This document shows positions 774 through 11,691 of a stretch of DNA of 64,000 bases, piece by piece. The notes beneath the pieces were generated by a model. It ran no database searches. It was not told where the DNA came from and worked only from the letters and a program-made list of their open reading frames with translations. The translations under genes and the position numbers were made by a program. Source of the stretch: Marivita sp. (GTDB taxonomy: Bacteria; Pseudomonadota; Alphaproteobacteria; Rhodobacterales; Rhodobacteraceae); the NCBI RefSeq assembly GCF_022763305.1, contig NZ_JALEGT010000041.1, positions 62,001-126,000 of the forward strand, in the 5' to 3' direction. Position 1 is the stretch's first letter. The number at the start of each line of letters is the position of its first letter.

Positions 774-823
774 TTTAGCTACCCTTCCAGATAAGCGCCC
801 CTCGTTGGGGAGGGGTGTCCCAC
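774..823 (-). promoter_or_regulatory. serC leader RNA hairpin containing the integration site
   Basis: On the minus strand the serC 5' leader begins GTGGGACACCCCTCCCC and folds into a 6-bp hairpin, CCCCTC-CCCAAC-GAGGGG, followed by a GGAAGG Shine-Dalgarno and the serC ATG. The hairpin and its position upstream of serC resemble the alphaproteobacterial serC leader motif known from comparative genomics (recalled, not searched). The C-rich arm could instead pair with GGAAGGGT over the Shine-Dalgarno with one mismatch, so a switch is conceivable. The 25-bp att repeat covers the 5' half of this leader. Confidence 0.6.
799..823. repeat. attL: left 25-bp direct repeat of the integrated element
   Basis: A 25-bp sequence (core CCTCGTTGGGGAGGGGTGTC) is repeated exactly at 11667-11691. 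The two copies bracket the whole phage-like gene block, and the integrase gene ends 7 bp before the right copy. Joining the two outer flanks across one copy restores a normal serC leader and serB-serC intergenic region. This is the expected product of site-specific integration. Confidence 0.9.
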
Positions 824-857
824 GAATCGGATACCCGAATCCCAAGAAAATATGCAA
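824..857 (-). promoter_or_regulatory. Element-encoded candidate promoter for serC at attL
   Basis: On the minus strand, TTGCAT (857-852) and TATCCG (833-828), separated by 18 bp, stand just upstream of the att core. The first T of TTGCAT is 34 bp from the start of GTGGGAC. In the displaced host sequence at the other end, TTGCGC is also exactly 34 bp from the same GTGGGAC. The -10 match is weak, so promoter activity is inferred from the matched spacing. Confidence 0.45.
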
Positions 858-1015: not shown

Positions 1016-1113
1016 AAAAGCGCATGTGAAGCTACCCAACTTCCCGGACACGATAGCCCGGTTTGGGCCGGTGCGCCAGCCATAATCCTGCGGCATTTCT
1101 GCGGGGTGGCGGT

Positions 1114-1911
1114 ATGACGATCCCGTTCAACATCTTCCCGGTGGGGCCTGACAAGGCCCCGCTAATCAAGGGCTGGCAAGAGGCCGCGACCCGCGACCCT
1201 GAGACCATCGCCGAATGGCAGGCGCAAGGCGTCCGGGCATGGGGCATCCCGACCGGCGCGCGCAACGGTCTGTTTGTGATCGACCTGGACGTGGACAAGG
1301 ACACGGGCGAGCGGATAGGGCGCGATAGCTTGCTGGCACTGCCGCGCTATGCGGACCTGTATGACCATGCCTTTGTCGCCACGCCCTCAGGTGGGCGGCA
1401 CATCTACTGCCAGCACTTCGACGGGGCGCGCAACAGCACGTCCAAGATCGGTCCCAAGATCGACACTCGCGGGGAAGGCGGCTACGTGGTCGCCCCCGGC
1501 TCTCAGGTTGCGGGCGGCTTCTATGTCGGCAGCGTTCCCGAAGTCCTGCCCCCTGTCCCGATGGGCTTGCGGGCGATGCTGCTGCACACGCCGACCGCGC
1601 CCCAGCGGACCTTTGACCGCCTGACCCCCACGGGCGAGGTTGAGGAACTGCTGGGGCACATTTCACCGGACCTGTCCTATCAGGATTGGGTGTCCGTCCT
1701 CATGGCGCTGCACGACCGCTACGGCGGCTCTGAGGAAGGGCTGGCGCTTGCGGATCGGTGGAGCGCGGGCGGGTCCAAGTATCGCAAGGGCGAGGTTGCC
1801 GCCAAGTGGCGCAGCTTCAAGCGCTGCGGCGTGTCCTGGGCGACCATCCCGGCGCTGGCCCGCCAGAACGGGGCTGACCTCTCTGACATTGCGCGGAGGT
1901 GGGCGGCATGA
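1114..1911 (+). CDS. Bifunctional primase/polymerase (prim-pol) with PriCT-like C-terminus
   Basis: This is probably the element's replication primase. The 265-residue product (MTIPFNIFPVG...) has the prim-pol fold signatures: the metal-binding DxD in FVIDLDVDK near residue 55, the SGGRHIYC motif near residue 95, and a glycine-rich GEGGYVVAPGS. Its last 80 residues (SYQDWVSVLMALHDRYGG...AAKWRSF) look like a PriCT domain. The ATG at 1114 is preferred over the track start at 1063 because homologues begin near the IPFNIFPV segment; the upstream Shine-Dalgarno is poor. It overlaps the next gene by ATGA. A prim-pol beside a helicase is typical of satellite replication modules. Confidence 0.8.
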   Translation: MTIPFNIFPVGPDKAPLIKGWQEAATRDPETIAEWQAQGVRAWGIPTGARNGLFVIDLDVDKDTGERIGRDSLLALPRYADLYDHAFVATPSGGRHIYCQHFDGARNSTSKIGPKIDTRGEGGYVVAPGSQVAGGFYVGSVPEVLPPVPMGLRAMLLHTPTAPQRTFDRLTPTGEVEELLGHISPDLSYQDWVSVLMALHDRYGGSEEGLALADRWSAGGSKYRKGEVAAKWRSFKRCGVSWATIPALARQNGADLSDIARRWAA

Positions 1912-2978
1912 CTGTGATTAACATGGGCGATATGCGCCGGTCCCGCGCGTCCGAGATTGAAAACCGCCTCGTGAGCCTTGGGGCAATCGAGGCGGTGTTG
2001 ACCAGTAACTACATGGTCAAGGGCTGGTTGGACCGAAATTGCCTTTCGATGCTCTACGGGCCGTCCAACGCGGGCAAGACGTTCGTGGCTTTAGACATTG
2101 CCATGCACATCGCGGCGGGCCAGACGTGGCGCGGCTTGCGGGTGAACGGCGGACCGGTTCTATACATCGCGGCTGAGGGCGGGGCGGGCATCCGCAACCG
2201 CCTTGCAGCGATCAAGCGTGACAAGCCGGATATGCGCAATGCGCCGTTTACGCTCTTGCCTGTCGGGCTGGACCTGCATGGGCAGGGCGATGCGCTTGCA
2301 GTTTGCGAGATCATGCCTGATGCAGATCCTGCCCTTGTCGTGATTGATACTCTCGCGCGGTCTATGGGCACCGGCGACGAGAACACCGCGAAAGACGCGG
2401 CCATGTTCGTGCGCAACTGCGACCTGATCCGCGAGGCAACAGGCGCTCATGTCATGGTGATCCACCACACCGGCAAGGATGAGGACCGGGGCGCACGTGG
2501 TTCGTCTGCCCTGCGGGCGGCGGTGGATAACGAGATACAAGTTACCGCCGATGGCGAGATCATATCTCGCAAGCAACGCGATCAAGAACCGCCTTTACCG
2601 CTACATTTCACTCTGCGGTCTGTGGTGCTGGGTGTCGATGAAGACGGCGACCCCGTGACAAGCGCCGTGGTGGATGAAGCCGAACCGCCCAAGAAAGAAC
2701 GCAAGCCCCTGACTGGCAAGAACGAGGTGGCAATGCAGGCGCTGCAAGACGCCTTGCGCGACCATGGCGAGACGAGAACGGGCAAAATGTATCCGTCCAA
2801 TCGGAAGGTTGTGCACGTGGATCATTGGCGCGCGGCCTGTGACGCCCACGGATTGACGAAGGGTGTCAGCGATAGCGCGGCTCGAACTGCATTCATGCGC
2901 GCCAAGGTCAAGCTGATGGACATGGATGAGGTGCGCGAGTGGGGCGACCATGTTTGGAGGGTTCAGGATGATGATTGA
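1908..2978 (+). CDS. RepA-like hexameric helicase (AAA/RecA-fold ATPase)
   Basis: Probable replicative helicase partner of the upstream primase. The Walker A motif is GPSNAGKT near residue 50 and the Walker B motif is ALVVIDTLAR near residue 145. A RecA-like VMVIHHTGKDEDRGARGSSAL segment follows, as in plasmid RepA and phage-type AAA_25 ATPases. The ATG at 1908 has GGAGG at 1895 with proper spacing and overlaps the upstream stop. The track start is an upstream in-frame GTG at 1899. The C-terminal third (from about residue 240) is charged and probably the DNA- or primase-interacting part. The gene runs directly into the GTCAC repeat cluster. Confidence 0.8.
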   Translation: MTVINMGDMRRSRASEIENRLVSLGAIEAVLTSNYMVKGWLDRNCLSMLYGPSNAGKTFVALDIAMHIAAGQTWRGLRVNGGPVLYIAAEGGAGIRNRLAAIKRDKPDMRNAPFTLLPVGLDLHGQGDALAVCEIMPDADPALVVIDTLARSMGTGDENTAKDAAMFVRNCDLIREATGAHVMVIHHTGKDEDRGARGSSALRAAVDNEIQVTADGEIISRKQRDQEPPLPLHFTLRSVVLGVDEDGDPVTSAVVDEAEPPKKERKPLTGKNEVAMQALQDALRDHGETRTGKMYPSNRKVVHVDHWRAACDAHGLTKGVSDSAARTAFMRAKVKLMDMDEVREWGDHVWRVQDDD

Positions 2979-3192
2979 CCGTCACGAACGTCACAAGCCG
3001 TCACAGTGCGTCACAAGTGCAGGCCAGATTTACCGTCACGAACGTCACACACCTCTAGAAGGTGTGACGATTGTGACGCTGGCGACGATGGACGCTGATC
3101 TGGTCCCAATGCCCCAGATTGGAGGTGCTGGGGGGGCCGCGGGGCGGGGTCTTCCTTTCTCTCTCCCAAAAAAATCTGGGGAGGATAGCTGA
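2968..3192 (+). CDS. Possible small ORF across the repeat cluster (doubtful)
   Basis: An open frame of 74 codons starts at ATG 2968 inside the helicase end and stops at 3192, sharing bases with the terminase ATG (TGATG). The product (MMIDRHERHKPSQCVTS...) is largely dictated by the GTCAC repeats, giving RHERH twice, and ends in a glycine-rich segment. It does not look like a small terminase: there is no helix-turn-helix and it is too short. The stop-start coupling is the only argument for translation. I would treat it as non-coding unless homologues are found. Confidence 0.2.
   Translation: MMIDRHERHKPSQCVTSAGQIYRHERHTPLEGVTIVTLATMDADLVPMPQIGGAGGAAGRGLPFSLPKKSGEDS
2978..3077. repeat. Iteron-like GTCAC cluster with dyad: candidate satellite origin
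   Basis: GTCAC begins at 2981, 2990, 3000, 3010, 3035 and 3044, with the inverse GTGAC at 3064 and 3073. Most spacings are 9-10 bp. An 18-bp unit, ACCGTCACGAACGTCACA, occurs twice (2978-2995 and 3032-3049). A dyad CACACCT-ctaga-AGGTGTG (3048-3066) divides direct from inverted copies. The cluster lies directly after the primase and helicase genes and before terminase. That position fits an iteron origin for the element's replication, or a cos/packaging site. Confidence 0.5.
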
Positions 3193-4724
3193 TGGCCAGG
3201 GCATCGAAAGAGGCGGCGGCGGCACTGCGGTTCCTTCCCAAGCTGGTGGTCCCTGAGGGCCGTCTTGCTGGCAAGCGGGTCAAGCTGGCCACGTATCAGA
3301 AAGAATTTGTACGCGGCGCTTTCGCCGATGGCATCGAGGCCGGGGTGTTGTCGATCGGTCGCGGCAACGCAAAGACGGCGCTTTCGGCTGGCATCGCGCT
3401 TGGGCATCTCATGGGCGAGATTGCGCCTCAGCCGAAACGCGAGATCATTTTCGCGGCTCGTAACCGCGACCAAGCCAAGACTGCTTTCGGGTTTCTGCTG
3501 GGTTTCATCGAAGGTCTGCCAGAGGATGAGCAGGCACAATTCACGATCCGGCGGGGCAGCAAGTTGGAAGTCGAGACGGCGGAAAACGGCGGCGGTCTGG
3601 CGCGGGTTATCGCGGCGGATGGCAAGTCAATTCTTGGCGGCGCTCCGACGCTGGCCATTCTGGACGAACGGGCGGCATGGGAACGCGAAAAGGGCGATGC
3701 TCTGGAGAACGCGATCTTGTCGGGTCTTGGCAAGCGTGACGGGCGGGCGTTGATTATTTCAACGTCGGCACCGGATGACGCAAACACCTTCAGCAGGTGG
3801 TTGGATGAACCGCCACCCGGCACCTATGTGCAGGAACACCGCCCGGACCCCGGCTTGCCCCCTGACGATCTGGAAAGCCTGCTGGTGGCGAACCCCGGCG
3901 CGGCTGAGGGCATCGGACCTTCTGCGGAATGGCTTACGGCGCAGGCACGGCGGGCGATTGCACGTGGCGGCTCTGCCCTGTCCAGTTTCCGCAACCTGAA
4001 CCGGAACGAGCGTGTCGCGTCCGACAATCGCTCTGTCCTTCTGACGGTTGACGAATGGCTTGGGTGCGAGGTCGCGCCTGACGATCTGCCCGTGCGTGAG
4101 GGTCCAGTTGTCATGGGTGTGGACCTTGGCGGGTCGCGCAGCATGTCGGCGGCGGCGCTCTACTGGCCAGAGACGGGCCGCTTGGAATGTGTCGGGGCCT
4201 TCCCCTGCAATCCCGGTCTTGCGGATCGTGGGCAAGCTGACGGCGTGTCTGGCCGCTATGTCGAGATGCGCGACCGAGGAGAACTCGTGACCATGGGTGA
4301 CACGACCGTGCCCGTGGGTCGGTTCCTTGCCAGCGTTGTCGAGCGGTTGAACGGGCAAGCCCCGGCGGCAATCGCGGGTGATCGGTTCCGCCATGCTGAG
4401 TTTCTTGAGGCGCTGCGAGACGCGGGTCTAGAGCGTGTGCCGTTCATTTGGCGCGGGTTCGGATGGAAAGACGGCTCCGAGGACATCGAACGGACGCGGC
4501 GCGCAGTTTTTGAGGGGCAGGTGCGCACGGTGCCGTCCCTGCTACTGCGATCTGCCTTTGCTGACGCAATCACACTTGTTGACCCGGCTGGCAATCACAA
4601 GCTGGCGGCGGGGCGCAGTACGGGCCGGGTGGACCCGGTGGCCGCAACCGTTGTTGCCGTCGCTCAAGGGCAGCGCATGAAGCGCGCGCCAAAACCACAT
4701 TCGGGGAGAGTAGCATGGGGCTGA
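3192..4724 (+). CDS. Phage terminase large subunit
   Basis: The motor and nuclease that packages DNA into the prohead. The product has 510 residues, a normal size for the family. The N-terminal ATPase has a terminase-type Walker A, GRGNAKTAL, near residue 55, and a Walker B, LAILDERAAW, near residue 158. The ISTSAPDD segment is the coupling motif. The nuclease domain starts near VVMGVDLGGSRS (residue 310), whose Asp is the likely first metal ligand. The ATG at 3192 is preceded by GGGGAGG. The gene overlaps the next by 10 bp. No recognisable small terminase precedes it, which is unusual for a full phage. Confidence 0.9.
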   Translation: MARASKEAAAALRFLPKLVVPEGRLAGKRVKLATYQKEFVRGAFADGIEAGVLSIGRGNAKTALSAGIALGHLMGEIAPQPKREIIFAARNRDQAKTAFGFLLGFIEGLPEDEQAQFTIRRGSKLEVETAENGGGLARVIAADGKSILGGAPTLAILDERAAWEREKGDALENAILSGLGKRDGRALIISTSAPDDANTFSRWLDEPPPGTYVQEHRPDPGLPPDDLESLLVANPGAAEGIGPSAEWLTAQARRAIARGGSALSSFRNLNRNERVASDNRSVLLTVDEWLGCEVAPDDLPVREGPVVMGVDLGGSRSMSAAALYWPETGRLECVGAFPCNPGLADRGQADGVSGRYVEMRDRGELVTMGDTTVPVGRFLASVVERLNGQAPAAIAGDRFRHAEFLEALRDAGLERVPFIWRGFGWKDGSEDIERTRRAVFEGQVRTVPSLLLRSAFADAITLVDPAGNHKLAAGRSTGRVDPVAATVVAVAQGQRMKRAPKPHSGRVAWG

Positions 4725-5053
4725 AATACGCCGCCCATCGGTTGATATATCAATTCGGGCAAGTTGGAAAAATCGTCAAACCGGGTGAGCCAACGGGGCC
4801 GGTCTTTGCGCCTATTCCAGGCGAACCTACGGAGCACACCGTAGCTGTCGCTTTGACGGATTACACGCATGAAGAAAGGGCGAACATGGCTATCTCCGAG
4901 GAGATGATGCGCGTCTACATGGCCCCTTCTGAGATCGTACCGACGAACGCCGATACACTTCTGATCGGAGAAAATGAGTATTCGATTATTTCAGTGAAGA
5001 CCGCGTTCAAGGCGAACATTGTGCTCTACCACGAATTGCAGGTGCGCCGATGA
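4715..5053 (+). CDS. Small head-closure/head-tail joining-like protein
   Basis: 112 residues, overlapping terminase by 10 bp and the HNH gene by ATGA. The C-terminal half (EEMMRVYMAPSEIVPTNADTLLIGENEYSIISVKT...VLYHELQVRR) resembles the beta-barrel head-closure proteins of HK97-like phages, which have a similar NADTL...YSI pattern and a terminal YELQVRR-like strand. Such proteins sit under the portal and seal the filled capsid. The assignment rests on pattern and context, not on a catalytic motif, so it is moderate. Confidence 0.5.
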   Translation: MGLKYAAHRLIYQFGQVGKIVKPGEPTGPVFAPIPGEPTEHTVAVALTDYTHEERANMAISEEMMRVYMAPSEIVPTNADTLLIGENEYSIISVKTAFKANIVLYHELQVRR

Positions 5054-5373
5054 GCAAGAGAAGTGAATTCGCGCGGCATAGCGCCAAGATCATTCGCGGC
5101 CCCCGGTGGAAGGCGCTCAGAATGCAGGCGCTTGAGCGTGACGACTGGCGTTGCGTCCAGTGTGGAACGCGCAAGGGCCTTGAGTGCGATCATATCGAGC
5201 CGGTCAAGACGCATCCGCAACTGGCCTACGTCCTGAGCAATTTGCAGATCCTATGTGGAGCCTGCCACGCGAGGAAAACCCGAATTGAGGTGGGCCACAA
5301 AGCCCTGACCCCAAAACGCCAGCAATGGCGCGATCTGCTGCGCGATATGCAGCGAAACCCTATCGAGCAATAG
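5050..5373 (+). CDS. HNH endonuclease
   Basis: 107 residues with a classic HNH nuclease: WRCVQCG (first CxxC), the CDHIEPVK H-containing strand, SNLQILCGACHARKT (N and the second CxxC) and a final His. In HK97-type and capsid-forming satellite packaging systems a small HNH protein works beside the large terminase and is needed for cleavage at cos sites. Its position inside the packaging block supports that role. The ATG overlaps the upstream stop (ATGA). It could otherwise be a homing-type nuclease, but its conserved company argues for packaging. Confidence 0.85.
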   Translation: MSKRSEFARHSAKIIRGPRWKALRMQALERDDWRCVQCGTRKGLECDHIEPVKTHPQLAYVLSNLQILCGACHARKTRIEVGHKALTPKRQQWRDLLRDMQRNPIEQ

Positions 5374-5382
5374 GAGAACATC

Positions 5383-6639
5383 ATGCTTGATTCTGTGAAA
5401 ATCCAACGTCGCCAGAGTGAAATTCGCCAGCAATTGGCGGAACTGGTGGGCAAGGATAAACCGACTGAAGACGAAACCCGTTCCATGGAAACACTGGACG
5501 CCGAATATCGGTCCAACGAAACCCGCTATCGGGCGGCGCTGGTGGCAGAAGACGACGAACGCCGCGAGGCTGGAGCAGAACTTGAGACACGTTCTGATCG
5601 TGAGTGGTCCGAACTGGCATCTCGCTTTGAAGTCCGTCAAGTGGCGCTTGCCCTGGACGAAGGCCGCGCCCTGTCGGGTCAAACGGCTGAAGTGGTGGAG
5701 GAACTTCGGAGCGCCGGCGGTTTCCAAGGCATCCCGGTTCCGCTTGAGGCTCTGGAAACACGCGCTGGTGAAACACTGGCGGGCGGTGTGCCTGACCCTA
5801 TCCGCACAATGCCGACGATTGATCGTCTGTTTGCGGCATCGTCGGCGACTCGCATGGGCGCGCGTATGATCCAAGTTGGCACGGGTGAGATTGAATATCC
5901 CGTCGGCACTGGTGGCGCACAACCGGGCTGGGCTGGGTCTGAGACTGGCGACGTTCCGGGGCCGCAAGCCTATACAACTGTTGATCGTCCCATGCGTCCT
6001 GACTACACGCTTGGCGTCCAGATGAAAATCACGCGCAAGGCTTTGAAGCAGGCGGGCGCAGGTTTGGAACAAGCCGTTCGTCGGGATATGTCAGCGGCAA
6101 TCCAGCAAGAGGTTGACCGCGTTATCTTCCAAGGTTCCGGGTCTGGTGGTGAGCCTTTGGGCATCTTTCCGGGCGCGTCCACCTACGGCATCACTGAGAC
6201 GGCGATTGACGCGGCGGCGTCCTATGCGGCGTTTCGTGCGGCGGCTGTGCGTTTCATGACGGCGAACGCGGCGAATAGCTTGGGTGCTATCAATCTGTTG
6301 CTGCGTCCTGAAGTCTTTGACGGCATGGATGACGACTTGTTGACGGGCACGGCTGTTTCCGAATGGGATCGGCTTACCGCCAAGATCGGCAACGTAGTGT
6401 TGACAACCAACGGCATCCTTGCCCCCGCTGGCGGTCCCCCGGTGGAGAGCACGGCGCTGTTGACGACGGCAACCAACGGTGTGGCGCCTGTCTTCTGCGG
6501 CATGTGGGGAGCGGTGGACATGATCCGCGATCCGTTCAGCGATGCGAAATCCGGTCAACTTCGCCTGACCGCGCTTACCACAATGGACGTGACTGTGGCG
6601 CGTGGTGTGCAACTTGAAATCCTGACCGGGGTGCAGTGA
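5383..6639 (+). CDS. Major capsid protein, HK97 fold
   Basis: 418 residues. The first 110 or so are a charged coiled-coil delta domain (RRQSEIRQQLAELVGKDK...), which acts as scaffold and is removed by the protease. The rest reads as an HK97 coat protein, with PMRPDYTLGVQMKITRKALKQ and RRDMSAAIQQEVDRVIFQGSGSGGEPLGI as family landmarks, and ends TVARGVQLEILTGV. The start ATG has AGGAGA upstream. It forms the icosahedral shell. It lies before the protease, the reverse of the usual portal-protease-capsid order. Confidence 0.92.
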   Translation: MLDSVKIQRRQSEIRQQLAELVGKDKPTEDETRSMETLDAEYRSNETRYRAALVAEDDERREAGAELETRSDREWSELASRFEVRQVALALDEGRALSGQTAEVVEELRSAGGFQGIPVPLEALETRAGETLAGGVPDPIRTMPTIDRLFAASSATRMGARMIQVGTGEIEYPVGTGGAQPGWAGSETGDVPGPQAYTTVDRPMRPDYTLGVQMKITRKALKQAGAGLEQAVRRDMSAAIQQEVDRVIFQGSGSGGEPLGIFPGASTYGITETAIDAAASYAAFRAAAVRFMTANAANSLGAINLLLRPEVFDGMDDDLLTGTAVSEWDRLTAKIGNVVLTTNGILAPAGGPPVESTALLTTATNGVAPVFCGMWGAVDMIRDPFSDAKSGQLRLTALTTMDVTVARGVQLEILTGVQ

Positions 6640-7247
6640 TGCTGACCGGCTTTGCAGATGGCGGTCTGGAACTACGCAAACGGGCATCCGGCGCTCTGAC
6701 GCTGCAAGGCCGGTTCCCTTACAACAAACGCGCGGTCCTGTCCGATGGTGGCAGGACCGGGCGACCCCGCAAAGAGGTTATCGCCTCACGCGCATTCGCC
6801 TATCGGGTGGAGCGTCCGAACGAGGACATCCACCTGTTGATCGGGCATAGCTATGACCGGCCCCTTGCATCGCGCGGGGCTGGCACACTGGACCTGAAAG
6901 ACAGTGACGATGCTCTGACATTCACCGCGTCAATCACTGAGGAAATGCAAGAGGTCAGTTTTGTGCGCGACTTTCTCGCGGCTTTCCGCGCGGGTCTGAT
7001 CGTCGGTATCAGTCCCGGCTTTCGGATACCGCCAGAACGCGCAGTAGCTGAGGCTGAGAGGGTGGAAGAGGAGGACCCTTCGGAGGGCATGGCGCTGATC
7101 CGAACGATCCTCGCGGCGCTGCTGTACGAGATCAGCGTTGTGACGCGACCCGCCTATGATGAAACCCAAATTGAAGAACGCAACTGGCAACCTGGCCGGG
7201 TGATCCTGCCCGTGCGCGTTCATCCGTCTGCCCGGTGGAGGGCGTGA
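6639..7247 (+). CDS. HK97-type prohead maturation protease
   Basis: Serine protease that cleaves the capsid delta domain during maturation. The product has 202 residues. The likely catalytic His is in LLIGHSYDRPLA near residue 70 and the catalytic Ser in AGLIVGISPGF near residue 125. The ALLYEISVVTRPAY strand is the standard family ending of the fold. The ATG at 6639 overlaps the capsid stop as TGATG, so I use it over the track's GTG at 6636. Translation is probably coupled to the capsid gene. Confidence 0.88.
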   Translation: MLTGFADGGLELRKRASGALTLQGRFPYNKRAVLSDGGRTGRPRKEVIASRAFAYRVERPNEDIHLLIGHSYDRPLASRGAGTLDLKDSDDALTFTASITEEMQEVSFVRDFLAAFRAGLIVGISPGFRIPPERAVAEAERVEEEDPSEGMALIRTILAALLYEISVVTRPAYDETQIEERNWQPGRVILPVRVHPSARWRA

Positions 7248-7249
7248 CC

Positions 7250-7792
7250 ATGACGATTGATCTGATCAAACAATTCGAGGCGGTCCCGACGGCATATCCG
7301 GCGGCACCGTCTGGCCTATCGGCTGAGGCGGCGGCGCTTGATCCTGACATGATCTGGGCGCGGATCGAGGCTTATATTGCGCACCGATGGACCCCGCGCC
7401 AAGTGATTTGGATTGTTGAAGGTGACGGCGATTGGTGCCCGAACTTGGCCCCGCTTGAAGTGACAGCAGAGGAAATGTGGAACGGCACTGCATGGGTGTC
7501 AGCGACCGTCTACGCCTCGCCATATGGCGGCTATCGCCTGACTCAGGCGGGGCTTTTCCGCTTCACTGGCACTGTCGGTGCAAACGCTGGCGACGTGCCT
7601 GCGGCTGTCTTTGAGGCGTTCAAGCGGTTGGCATCGTACTACGCCGACTGTGACGACCGGGCCGGGGCGAATTCGGTTTCCGAACGTCTGGGCGATCTGG
7701 AAACAAGTGTCACACGCAACCCCGCATGGATGGCGCGCGCAATGCAGAATAGCGGCGCGGCTGATCTGTTGCGCCCATATCGGAGGGCCTGA
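7250..7792 (+). CDS. Head-tail connector, gp6-like
   Basis: 180 residues. The C-terminal half (AVFEAFKRLASYYAD...SVSERLGDLETSVTRNPAWMARAMQNSGAADLLRPYRRA) is the pattern of gp6-like DNA-packaging/connector proteins, which form a ring under the portal and normally end in a LLRPYR-type tail. The N-terminus has hydrophobic and aromatic strands I cannot assign. The ATG at 7250 follows GGTGGAGG with 8-nt spacing, so I prefer it to the track's GTG at 7235. It lies between the protease and the portal gene. Confidence 0.7.
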   Translation: MTIDLIKQFEAVPTAYPAAPSGLSAEAAALDPDMIWARIEAYIAHRWTPRQVIWIVEGDGDWCPNLAPLEVTAEEMWNGTAWVSATVYASPYGGYRLTQAGLFRFTGTVGANAGDVPAAVFEAFKRLASYYADCDDRAGANSVSERLGDLETSVTRNPAWMARAMQNSGAADLLRPYRRA

Positions 7793-7794
7793 GG

Positions 7795-8847
7795 ATGTGG
7801 CCATTCAAACGAAAAGAGAAGATCGAAACCCGTTCAAGCGGCACCGGATACACAACGCAAGTGATGCAGGCGCGCGCCGATTACATCACGGGCGTTGACG
7901 GTGTTGCCGAACTCACGGGCACCGTTCAAGGCTGTGTGAGCCTGTGGGAGGGCGGTCTAAGCCTTGCCGATGTGGACGGCACCGACATGCTGACCCCGTT
8001 CCACCTTGCGCTTGCAGCGCGTGCTCTGGCGCTCCGAGGTGAGTGTGTCTTCTACATGGCTGGTGATCGGCTCATTCCTGCGAGTGACTGGGATTTGACG
8101 ACGCGCTTTACCCGGCCTGTGGCCTACCGTTTGGGCCTGCCAGATACCGGCGGCGGCAAGTCGGTCACGGCGCTGGCGGCTGAGGTGCTGCATTTCAGGA
8201 TCGGCGCAGATGTGAACATGCCGTATGTCGGTCAATCGCCACTTAGACGGGCACGGCTGACGGCGGGCTTGCTGCAAGTGATCGAGATGGCATTGCAGGA
8301 GGTGTACGCCAATGCGCCGCTGGGATCGTCGGTCATTCCCATGCCTGAGCAACCGGAAACCGATATGAACGATCTGGCCCGTGGGTTCCGCCAGTTTCGC
8401 GGCAAGGTGCTCGTGCGCGAGTCGGTGCACGTGGCGGCGGCGGGCGGTCCTGCGCCTCAGACGGATTTAAAGCCGAACGACATTAGCCCGGACTTGTCGC
8501 GGTCTATGACCAAGGAGTCTCTGGCATCGGCGCGGGCATCAATCGAGATGGTGTATGGCGTCCTGCCCGGCCTGAGCAATCCTTCCACAACCGGGCCCAT
8601 GGTGCGCGAGGCGCAACGGCATCTCGCGCAGTGGGCGCTTATGCCGGTGGCGGCCATGATTGCGCAAGAGGCGTCCGACAAGCTGGGAGCGCCTGTCGCC
8701 CTGGACGTGATGCGGCCGCTGCAAGCCTTCGACGCTGGTGGCCGTGCTCGTGCCCTGTCGGCAATCGTTCAAACACTGGCACTGGCGAAAGAGGCGGGTG
8801 TTGATCCTGACACTGCCATGAAGCTGGTGGACTGGGATAGCGTGTAG
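7795..8847 (+). CDS. Phage portal protein, HK97 family
   Basis: Forms the dodecameric DNA entry channel at one capsid vertex. The product has 350 residues. Landmarks are MWPFKRKEK at the start, the VQGCVSLWEGG helix, a WDLTTRFTRPVAYRL segment, EVLHFRIGADVNMPYVGQSPLRRAR, the central LARGFRQFRGKVLVRESVHV region and the clip/stem part around RSMTKESLASARASIEMVYGVLPGL. It is the last gene of the morphogenesis operon and is followed by a strong terminator. Placing portal last is the opposite of lambda- and HK97-type order. Confidence 0.88.
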   Translation: MWPFKRKEKIETRSSGTGYTTQVMQARADYITGVDGVAELTGTVQGCVSLWEGGLSLADVDGTDMLTPFHLALAARALALRGECVFYMAGDRLIPASDWDLTTRFTRPVAYRLGLPDTGGGKSVTALAAEVLHFRIGADVNMPYVGQSPLRRARLTAGLLQVIEMALQEVYANAPLGSSVIPMPEQPETDMNDLARGFRQFRGKVLVRESVHVAAAGGPAPQTDLKPNDISPDLSRSMTKESLASARASIEMVYGVLPGLSNPSTTGPMVREAQRHLAQWALMPVAAMIAQEASDKLGAPVALDVMRPLQAFDAGGRARALSAIVQTLALAKEAGVDPDTAMKLVDWDSV

Positions 8848-10461: not shown

Positions 10462-10808
10462 TGTCCCGTCCGGCCCTGCCCCTCTACACCACGCCTGAGG
10501 AACTCGCCGCGCATCTCGGCGCGTCCGAGCGTTTCGTGCGTGATGAGGTTCGGGCGCTTGGGTGTTTTGCGAAGATCGGCGCGCGGGTCATAATGCGGGA
10601 ACATCACGTTGACGCCTTCATGGAGGCAATGGAATGTCGCTCACACTCTACCGCCGGGGCCAAATCTGGCACTACCGAGGAACGGTTGCCGGTAGGCGAC
10701 TCCGAGGCTCTACAGGCACGGCTGACAAGAAAATCGCCGAACGCATCCGCGCGGAAAAAGAGGCCGAAGCGTGGCAATGTCGTTTCGATGGGCCGGGGGC
10801 ACGGTTGA
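10461..10808 (+). CDS. AlpA/excisionase-like HTH protein
   Basis: 115 residues. The first 55 form a helix-turn-helix of the excisionase/AlpA type: YTTPEELAAHLGASERFVRDEVRALGCFAKIGARVIMREHHVDAFMEAM, with the typical R-I-R strand before the last helix. The basic C-terminal tail (RKSPNASARKKRPKRGNVVSM) is translated from DNA that also encodes the integrase N-terminus in another frame. The start overlaps the upstream stop. Likely roles are the recombination directionality factor or, as AlpA is in PICIs, the activator of integrase. The phased ATGCAG array at attL is a candidate target. Confidence 0.65.
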   Translation: MSRPALPLYTTPEELAAHLGASERFVRDEVRALGCFAKIGARVIMREHHVDAFMEAMECRSHSTAGAKSGTTEERLPVGDSEALQARLTRKSPNASARKKRPKRGNVVSMGRGHG

Positions 10809-11659
10809 CCATGGCCAAAGCATTCATTGCATACCTGGACGGCGGCGGCGAAGACCGCTTTGTTGCCAAGCTGAACGCTCATTGGGGCAACAAGCTGGTG
10901 TCCGAGATCACGCCGGACATGATCCACCGGGCAGCGCCGAAAATCTATCCCGGCTGTACTGGCGCGACATGGAACCGCCAAGTGATTGCCCCGACTATTG
11001 CAGCAATCAATCTCTGCGCCGAACGGGGCTGGTGTAGTCCGATTAAGGCCAAGCGTTACAAAGTCAATGCAAAGACGAAAGTCCCGGCTGATCTGGCGTG
11101 GGTTAATGCCTTCGCTTCTCAGGCTTGCCAAGATGGTCTTGTTCATTTGGCGGCGATGGCAGTGTTCATGTTCGGCACGGGCGCGCGCGTAGGTGAAGCA
11201 ACCGCACTCATATGGTCTGACGTTGATTTGGACAATGCCAAGGCGACAATCCACCAGACCAAGATTGACGACACGCGCAAGGCTCACTTGCCGCAACAGG
11301 TGCTTACCGCTCTACGCAACATCCCGTCGAATCGTGCCCCTGACGATCTGGTGTTTGGCTACGCCGGTCGGGGCAGTGTGACGAAGGTTTGGAACAACGT
11401 GGCAGCGCGCGCCGGGATCGAGCCGTTGACACCGCATTGTTGCCGTCACGGCTTTGCGACGACGATGATGCGCAAGGGCATCGACGTGAAAACTATTGCC
11501 AAGGCTGGTGGGTGGAAGGACGCCGCAACAGTGCTGCGCACCTACGCTCACGCCCTTGACGATAAGACCGTGACAGACGCGGTTTTTGACACACCAGTGA
11601 CACAAGGTCAAAACACTGGTGACGTAACTAACTCAAACAAAAGGAAAAAACGCGCATGA
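10634..11659 (+). CDS. Tyrosine recombinase (integrase)
   Basis: 341 residues. The N-terminal arm-binding and core-binding parts begin MSLTLYRRGQIWHYRGTVAG. The catalytic domain shows Arg in FGTGARVGEATAL (near residue 190), H-x-x-R in TPHCCRHGFATTM (near 275), and the nucleophile Tyr in DAATVLRTYAHALD (near 310). GGAGG precedes the ATG by 7 nt. It overlaps the xis-like gene by 175 bp in another frame and stops 7 bp before attR, as integrases usually lie beside the att site. It inserts the element into the serC leader. Confidence 0.92.
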   Translation: MSLTLYRRGQIWHYRGTVAGRRLRGSTGTADKKIAERIRAEKEAEAWQCRFDGPGARLTMAKAFIAYLDGGGEDRFVAKLNAHWGNKLVSEITPDMIHRAAPKIYPGCTGATWNRQVIAPTIAAINLCAERGWCSPIKAKRYKVNAKTKVPADLAWVNAFASQACQDGLVHLAAMAVFMFGTGARVGEATALIWSDVDLDNAKATIHQTKIDDTRKAHLPQQVLTALRNIPSNRAPDDLVFGYAGRGSVTKVWNNVAARAGIEPLTPHCCRHGFATTMMRKGIDVKTIAKAGGWKDAATVLRTYAHALDDKTVTDAVFDTPVTQGQNTGDVTNSNKRKKRA

Positions 11660-11666
11660 CCGCTTA

Positions 11667-11691
11667 CCCTCGTTGGGGAGGGGTGTCCCAC
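11667..11691. repeat. attR: right 25-bp direct repeat
   Basis: Exact copy of 799-823. On the minus strand it reads GTGGGACACCCCTCCCCAAC, the 5' end of the displaced serC leader. Beyond it, to the right, is host DNA of the old serB-serC intergenic region. The hairpin arm CCCTC/GAGGG is kept in this copy. Confidence 0.9.

Follow-up and report, generated by a model that had tools for sequence, protein, structure and literature searches.

An iteron array paired with a RepA-type helicase as the probable replication origin of an integrated satellite in Marivita sp.

Introduction

In a stretch of Marivita sp. DNA of 64,000 nucleotides (the window, meaning the whole stretch analysed, to which all coordinates refer), a cluster of short GTCAC-containing repeats lies between a helicase gene and a terminase gene, which raises the question of whether the cluster serves to start replication or to package DNA. 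The initial annotation placed the cluster at 2978-3077 and held that either a satellite replication origin or a cos site would fit. Here, the cluster was compared with the corresponding DNA of helicase relatives and of terminase large subunit gene (terL) relatives, and its repeat units were compared with the helicases that precede them.

Materials and Methods

The comparison sets comprised 79 terL-related loci from bacterial genomes and helicase relatives added from viral contigs and genomes; these sets are non-random samples, and the metagenomic contigs may be chimeric. For the covariation analysis, 74 distinct helicase/array pairs were used, each array being assigned the listed hexamer that occurred most often within 190 bp. 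The null model for the array consisted of thirty first-order Markov sequences with the length and dinucleotide make-up of the window, scored per 110 bp.

Results and Discussion

The array lies in a satellite element of 10,868 bp bounded by 25-bp exact repeats:

799..823, unstranded, attL candidate, 25-bp exact repeat CCCTCGTTGGGGAGGGGTGTCCCAC, inside the serC leader
1063..1911, + strand, Prim-Pol with PriCT_2 primase, overlapping the helicase gene
1899..2978, + strand, AAA_25 / RSF1010 RepA-type helicase ending in a winged helix, the proposed initiator that binds the origin (Pfam AAA_25 6.8e-40; profile 1g8y RepA; AF2 pLDDT 87.6)
3192..4724, + strand, terminase large subunit, HK97-like
5050..5373, + strand, HNH endonuclease
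5383..8847, + strand, major capsid protein, prohead protease, connector candidate and portal (portal below Pfam cut-off)
10634..11659, + strand, tyrosine integrase
11667..11691, unstranded, attR candidate, second copy of the 25-bp repeat

The genes run in the order Prim-Pol, helicase, HK97-like TerL, head closure, HNH, capsid, protease and portal, followed by XRE, excisionase and integrase; the connector candidate (7235-7792) was assigned solely from position and conservation. The element showed no tail genes, which fits a capsid-encoding phage satellite whose tails and lysis functions would be supplied by a helper phage. In its size and in its capsid, protease, portal (a weak match), connector, TerL, HNH, integrase and primase genes, the element resembles the capsid-forming PICIs (cf-PICIs). 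Unlike them, it lacks a recognisable TerS of its own among the element proteins scanned; the HNH protein has a weak match to a TerS-annotated PHROG.

The element is integrated in the serC leader RNA (RF00517; window 774-825, - strand), and because the att repeat is part of that leader, the left junction retains a full-length leader match. A viral contig of 10,114 bp (L269) that encodes a related TerL carries a 144-bp exact terminal repeat and is probably a related satellite assembled as a complete circle.

The array itself is made up of the following parts:

2980..3014, + strand, iteron block A, four direct CGTCAC units (2980, 2989, 2999, 3009), of the same geometry with other units in relatives
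3034..3048, + strand, iteron block B, two direct CGTCAC units (3034, 3043)
3064..3078, - strand, two units in inverted orientation (GTGACG, 3064 and 3073) that pair with block B
3034..3078, unstranded, dyad or hairpin with CTCTAGA centre and a loop containing CTA, its stem varying among relatives yet complementary

Successive unit spacings are 9, 10, 10, 25 and 9 bp, then the dyad, then 9 bp. The eight phased units of the initial annotation (9-10 bp) resolve into six direct and two inverted copies of CGTCAC, and its exact 18-bp repeat was recovered as ACCGTCACGAACGTCACA at 2978-2995 and 3032-3049, where it forms part of a 23-nt repeat that has a single mismatch. Its placement of the cluster between the helicase and terminase genes was also confirmed, the array starting two bases past the helicase stop codon (2976-2978) and ending 113 bp upstream of the TerL start at 3192. 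Two details were amended: the feature ends at 3078, and the dyad, described as central, is located at the 3' end of the cluster. The 64-kb window holds 67 CGTCAC/GTGACG sites in total, eight of them in the array, as compared to at most 2-3 units per 110 bp in the simulated sequences.

Multiple short repeats directly 3' of an initiator gene are a trait of iteron-type origins. A second such trait, two iteron sets around an AT-rich melting region, was not seen; the array does have two blocks, but inspection of the 19 bp between blocks A and B found no AT-rich tract. GC skew, proposed earlier as a check, showed no clear turn at the array and is uninformative as origin evidence.

Close relatives of the helicase carry an array of the same geometry at the same place, frequently built from another unit, and arrays follow the helicase C-terminus in close and distant relatives alike. 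The helicase (359 aa) matches RSF1010 RepA (1g8y) in its ATPase part only, by profile (E 7e-13) and by fold; homology and fold thus indicate a RepA-type hexameric helicase, the hexamer being predicted. No RepC-like gene, the separate RepC of an RSF1010-type replicon, was seen beside the helicase gene. In the AlphaFold2 model (62-sequence alignment, mean pLDDT 87.6), the protein ends in a predicted winged helix of H-E-H-H-E-E order (H273-289, E304-306, H307-316, H325-341, E345-348, E351-354), encoded as follows:

2715..2960, + strand, winged-helix codons, residues 273-354 (AF2; the domain alone folds likewise)
2871..2921, + strand, recognition helix codons, residues 325-341 (third helix in the AF2 model)
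2886..2888, + strand, codon of residue 330 (Thr), the residue that best predicts the iteron unit

A Foldseek search of the isolated domain against solved structures gave weak matches (best E 0.13) to CRP-type winged helices. Residues 330 and 333 are on the third helix of the modelled winged helix and, judged by spacing, residues 326, 330, 333 and 337 would share one face of it.

Across the 74 pairs, the units CGTCAC, CGTTAC, CGTAAC, CGTGAC, CGTTCC, CGGGAC and CGGACA were found, the geometry persisting. Units change in concert across all copies of an array, with spacing and dyad kept. In a scan of all helicase columns, residue 330 ranked first for the unit in both subfamilies separately, with an adjusted mutual information of 0.83 in subfamily A (n=31) and 0.82 in subfamily B (n=28); column maxima in the N-domain were 0.20 and 0.29, respectively. 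Thr330 pairs with CGTCAC, Val330 with CGTTAC, Gln330 with CGTGAC, and Met330 together with Ala326 pairs with CGTAAC. Among the closest relatives, the unit-linked differences are confined to one short stretch of the helicase, which reads SDSAARTAFMRAK with CGTCAC, SDSAARVAFKRVK with CGTTAC, TDAAARMAFKRAK with CGTAAC/GCGAAC, SDSAARQAFKRAK with CGTGAC and SESAARKAFIRNK with CGGGAC. In distant relatives, SASRTAFMRAK (from a helicase 53% identical) occurs with CGTCAC, SAKRQAFGRAW with CGTGAC, SAKRKAFFxVK with CGTTACC and SSKRTAFHK with CGTTCC.

On a tree of the N-domain only, the unit changes about 36 times. CGTGAC with Gln330 gave eight independent pairs pointing the same way and none contrary (p=0.008), and CGTCAC, CGTAAC, CGTTACC and CGTTCC likewise had no contrary pairs, their 3-6 pairs each being too few for significance. 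Of four loci seen after the rule had been drawn, three agree with it: L379 has Thr330 with CGTCAC, though its closest relative L168 has Gln330 with CGTGAC, and L366 and L368 have T/H with CGTTCC. The one miss, L327, combines SDSAARMAFKRAK (M330, S326) with a CGTCAC array. Met330 thus accompanies CGTAAC when residue 326 is Ala, but CGTCAC in L327 and L166; further deviations are L112 (Ala330) and L027 (Thr330 with CGTGAC). A code of a single residue was rejected because Met330 and Thr330 depend on context, and the few exceptions indicate that neighbouring residues matter.

In the sequences compared, therefore, the unit covaries with residues 324-337 of the predicted C-terminal winged helix, and with residue 330 above all; mutual specificity of an initiator's DNA-binding domain and its iterons, as in an iteron origin, is seen here as covariation. 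About 20 bp separate the end of the winged-helix codons from the array; one recombination can move both, and co-segregation alone is for this reason weaker than it appears. The agreement between residue and unit across distant subfamilies, however, argues for function over linkage. Whereas the initial annotation named the prim-pol or the helicase product as candidate binder of the array, the sequence comparison narrows the choice to the helicase C-terminus.

Binding by the winged helix, or by an XRE or MerR-like regulator, could also make the array an operator, controlling the terL-capsid operon or repressing prim-pol and helicase transcription. The array does lie between replication and packaging genes, and a protein binding it can also autoregulate; nevertheless, such a role appears improbable, since arrays stand behind helicases regardless of which gene comes next, unit and helicase covary, and XRE and MerR homologues are present in a minority of loci. 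Additionally, neither a promoter (the search covered the sigma-70-like type) nor a terminator was found in 2800-3300, and the array was rejected as a promoter or terminator region on that finding.

The cos site of the initial annotation, bound by terminase, would explain why the array is directly upstream of terL in an element that also encodes an HNH protein and an HK97-like TerL; phages of the HK97 type are cos phages. A cos site should be conserved with its terminase, but the terL-related loci mostly have other genes upstream of terL and no CGTCAC cluster. Upstream DNA was readable for about 70 terL relatives, and in these, CGTCAC clusters with the window's geometry occurred only with a close helicase (L002, L009). 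Arrays were also present after helicases with no terL relative downstream on the fetched stretch (L105, L112, L114, L115, L118, L121, L122). Furthermore, CGTCAC arrays adjoin TerL proteins of 53, 62 and 85-100% identity, and CGTAAC arrays adjoin the same three types, such that one unit stands beside different TerL types and one TerL type beside different units. Because the array accompanies the helicase with or without terL and its units are independent of TerL type, the array is a helicase-linked feature. With TerS not found and another block common to the terL relatives, it is very unlikely that the array forms part of a cos site; of the two functions first proposed, the origin is the one that the comparison strongly favours.

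That other block lies downstream of the array:

3101..3170 (about), + strand, terL-linked conserved DNA block TGGTCCCAATGCCC ... TTCCTTTCTCTCTCCC, cos candidate apart from the iterons

Its motif GGTCCCAATGCC was found upstream of terL in 81 of 95 loci (up to one mismatch, within 400 bp), with a second box, TTTCTCTCTCCC, about 57 bp after it in most loci, replaced by CACACAC where TerL is 52-53% identical. When viral contigs were searched with the 14-mer alone, 44 of 80 loci had terL no more than 300 bp away, and the block from TGGTCCCAATGCCC to TTTCTCTCTCCC is common to terL relatives whatever the rep gene, so that conservation with the terminase, as expected of a cos site, is a property of 3101-3170. 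The block was also considered as a small gene (VPMP...FSLPK), its frame near the window looking coding; as a general reading this was rejected, since the frame shifts between the boxes in relatives and the ORF ends at many different places among them. The reading frame not being conserved, the block acts as DNA. We consider it, with moderate confidence and from its conservation, a better cos candidate than the array. Contig ends were insufficient as cos evidence, three contigs among about 80 starting 25, 50 and 61 bp upstream of the motif, and a search for named phages with the block found none.

The arms of the dyad (3034-3050 with 3062-3078) are 88% complementary. In relatives, the stem outside the units reads ACACC/GGTGT, GCGCT/AGCGC, CTCCC/GGGAG and others, complementarity and the CTA loop being kept, and as single-stranded DNA the window dyad folds somewhat better than shuffles (z=-2.1). 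Such conservation despite sequence change would agree with an RNA or single-strand structure (an attenuator or a single-strand initiation site) to which the direct units are incidental, but this is scarcely credible given that the four direct units left unpaired switch together with the paired units and that no T-run follows the stem. The dyad structure is better seen as an added origin feature than as a rival. In RSF1010, RepB' primes at ssiA/ssiB. By analogy with those ssi sites and with the pRN1 stem-loop, the dyad may be where the Prim-Pol acts (PMC4234260).

Several relatives record how units may have changed. Locus L009 (the same as L101; 1316-1660) has a CGTTAC array beside a V330 helicase and, in tandem with it, a CGTCAC array; only the first matches the helicase, and the second is preceded by a copy of the helicase gene end. 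The locus reads as the fossil of a specificity switch, in which a new helicase tail and array were inserted and the old array was left. In L021, L019, L064, L175 and L171, the helicase reading frame extends across the iteron array, which makes the origin there protein-coding as well. In L354 (2662-3297; L105), the helicase C-domain continues into the first part of a serine recombinase, and a gene judged by eye to be TerS-like lies downstream; the helicase gene of this satellite seems to have been the integration site of a phage. Among 41 loci, no free-standing winged helix fused to a nuclease, as an analogue of the phage nuclease Odn would be, was found, the only C-domain without a helicase core and with room upstream being a disrupted helicase.

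Arrays of other repeats after helicase genes, which add to the evidence for linkage to the helicase, were noted in three further replicons. Rhizobium phage 16-3 has an unannotated GCGTGACA array of 13 copies directly after its RepA-type helicase gene (L378 3530-3870, after p101), and Roseobacter phage CRP-811 has an unannotated CTACAAA array of about 11 copies after its own (L377 3563-3740); judging from sequence, the arrays of these cultured phages are likely origins. In the Klebsiella record CP018459.1 (L380 3973-4180), a 17-kb circular record called a plasmid, a RepA-type helicase is followed by TGCGGC-type repeats and a capsid gene is present; this is possibly an episomal satellite.

Known systems share parts of this arrangement. 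PICI/SaPI origins lie directly 3' of rep and have iterons, and the helicase C-terminus recognises the origin (PMC6092414, PMC7581432); the window array likewise consists of short iterons immediately 3' of an initiator-helicase gene. However, SaPI-type Rep is DUF927 or D5/Primase_Cterm as opposed to the AAA_25 / RSF1010 RepA-type RecA-fold helicase of the window, where the iteron sets have no AT-rich tract between them and the array is closed by a dyad with a conserved loop. RSF1010 oriV (RepA, RepB', RepC) provides the closest solved helicase, adjacent primase and helicase genes, and iterons with hairpins, but there a separate RepC binds the iterons (PMC4234260), whereas in the window the winged helix is fused to the helicase and the units are 9-10 bp. 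The pRN1-type origin combines Prim-Pol, helicase and winged helix with a stem-loop origin of non-conserved sequence (PMC4234260); it resembles the window in lying just downstream of the replication gene, in its stem-loop and in the C-terminal position of the winged helix, and differs in having an SF3 helicase in one polypeptide and no iterons.

In the PLE satellites of Vibrio cholerae, the DNA-binding domain of RepA covaries with the origin, and the two are exchanged in modular fashion; a phage nuclease, Odn, copies PLE specificity to cut the iterons (PMC8263062). By this analogy, an Odn-type nuclease is a plausible driver of unit switching. PLE RepA is, however, a RepA_N protein without helicase activity, and PLEs have two specificity groups vs. 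at least seven units here. Iteron-Rep matching is also known in geminiviruses (PMC12548392). No description of an AAA_25 helicase with such an array was found in the open-licence papers searched; within these papers, the pairing of a RepA-type helicase with fused winged helix to this array appears to be new, as does the partly readable residue-to-base code.

Conclusions

Combined, the comparisons indicate that the array very probably supplies the iterons of a replication origin belonging to the satellite itself, with the fused helicase-initiator as the protein that binds them. The winged helix would bind each 9-10 bp unit, so that several helicase subunits would align on one DNA face along blocks A and B, and neither a separate initiator nor a host loader would be needed to place the RepA-type ring on the origin and open it. 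The dyad at the 3' end would be exposed as a hairpin, on which the upstream-encoded Prim-Pol may prime. Unit switching probably results from selection on replicon specificity, driven either by incompatibility among related satellites or by helper-phage nucleases directed at origins. More broadly, we lean towards the reading that RepA-type (RecA-fold) initiator helicases that place themselves are widespread; that their fused winged helix follows a largely readable residue-base code (chiefly 330, with 324, 326, 327 and 333); and that, driven by incompatibility or phage nucleases, specificity has switched dozens of times in satellites and phages through small helix changes and concerted array replacement.

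This family offers a natural series of many origin-specificity changes in which the initiator residue and the DNA base are both readable, so that rules of initiator-origin recognition and of replicon incompatibility become testable by single substitutions. The family would also show a RepA-type helicase finding its own origin, a job that RSF1010 splits between RepA and RepC. In practice, the identity of residue 330 and of the residues near it gives a prediction of which satellites would use a common origin or compete for one.
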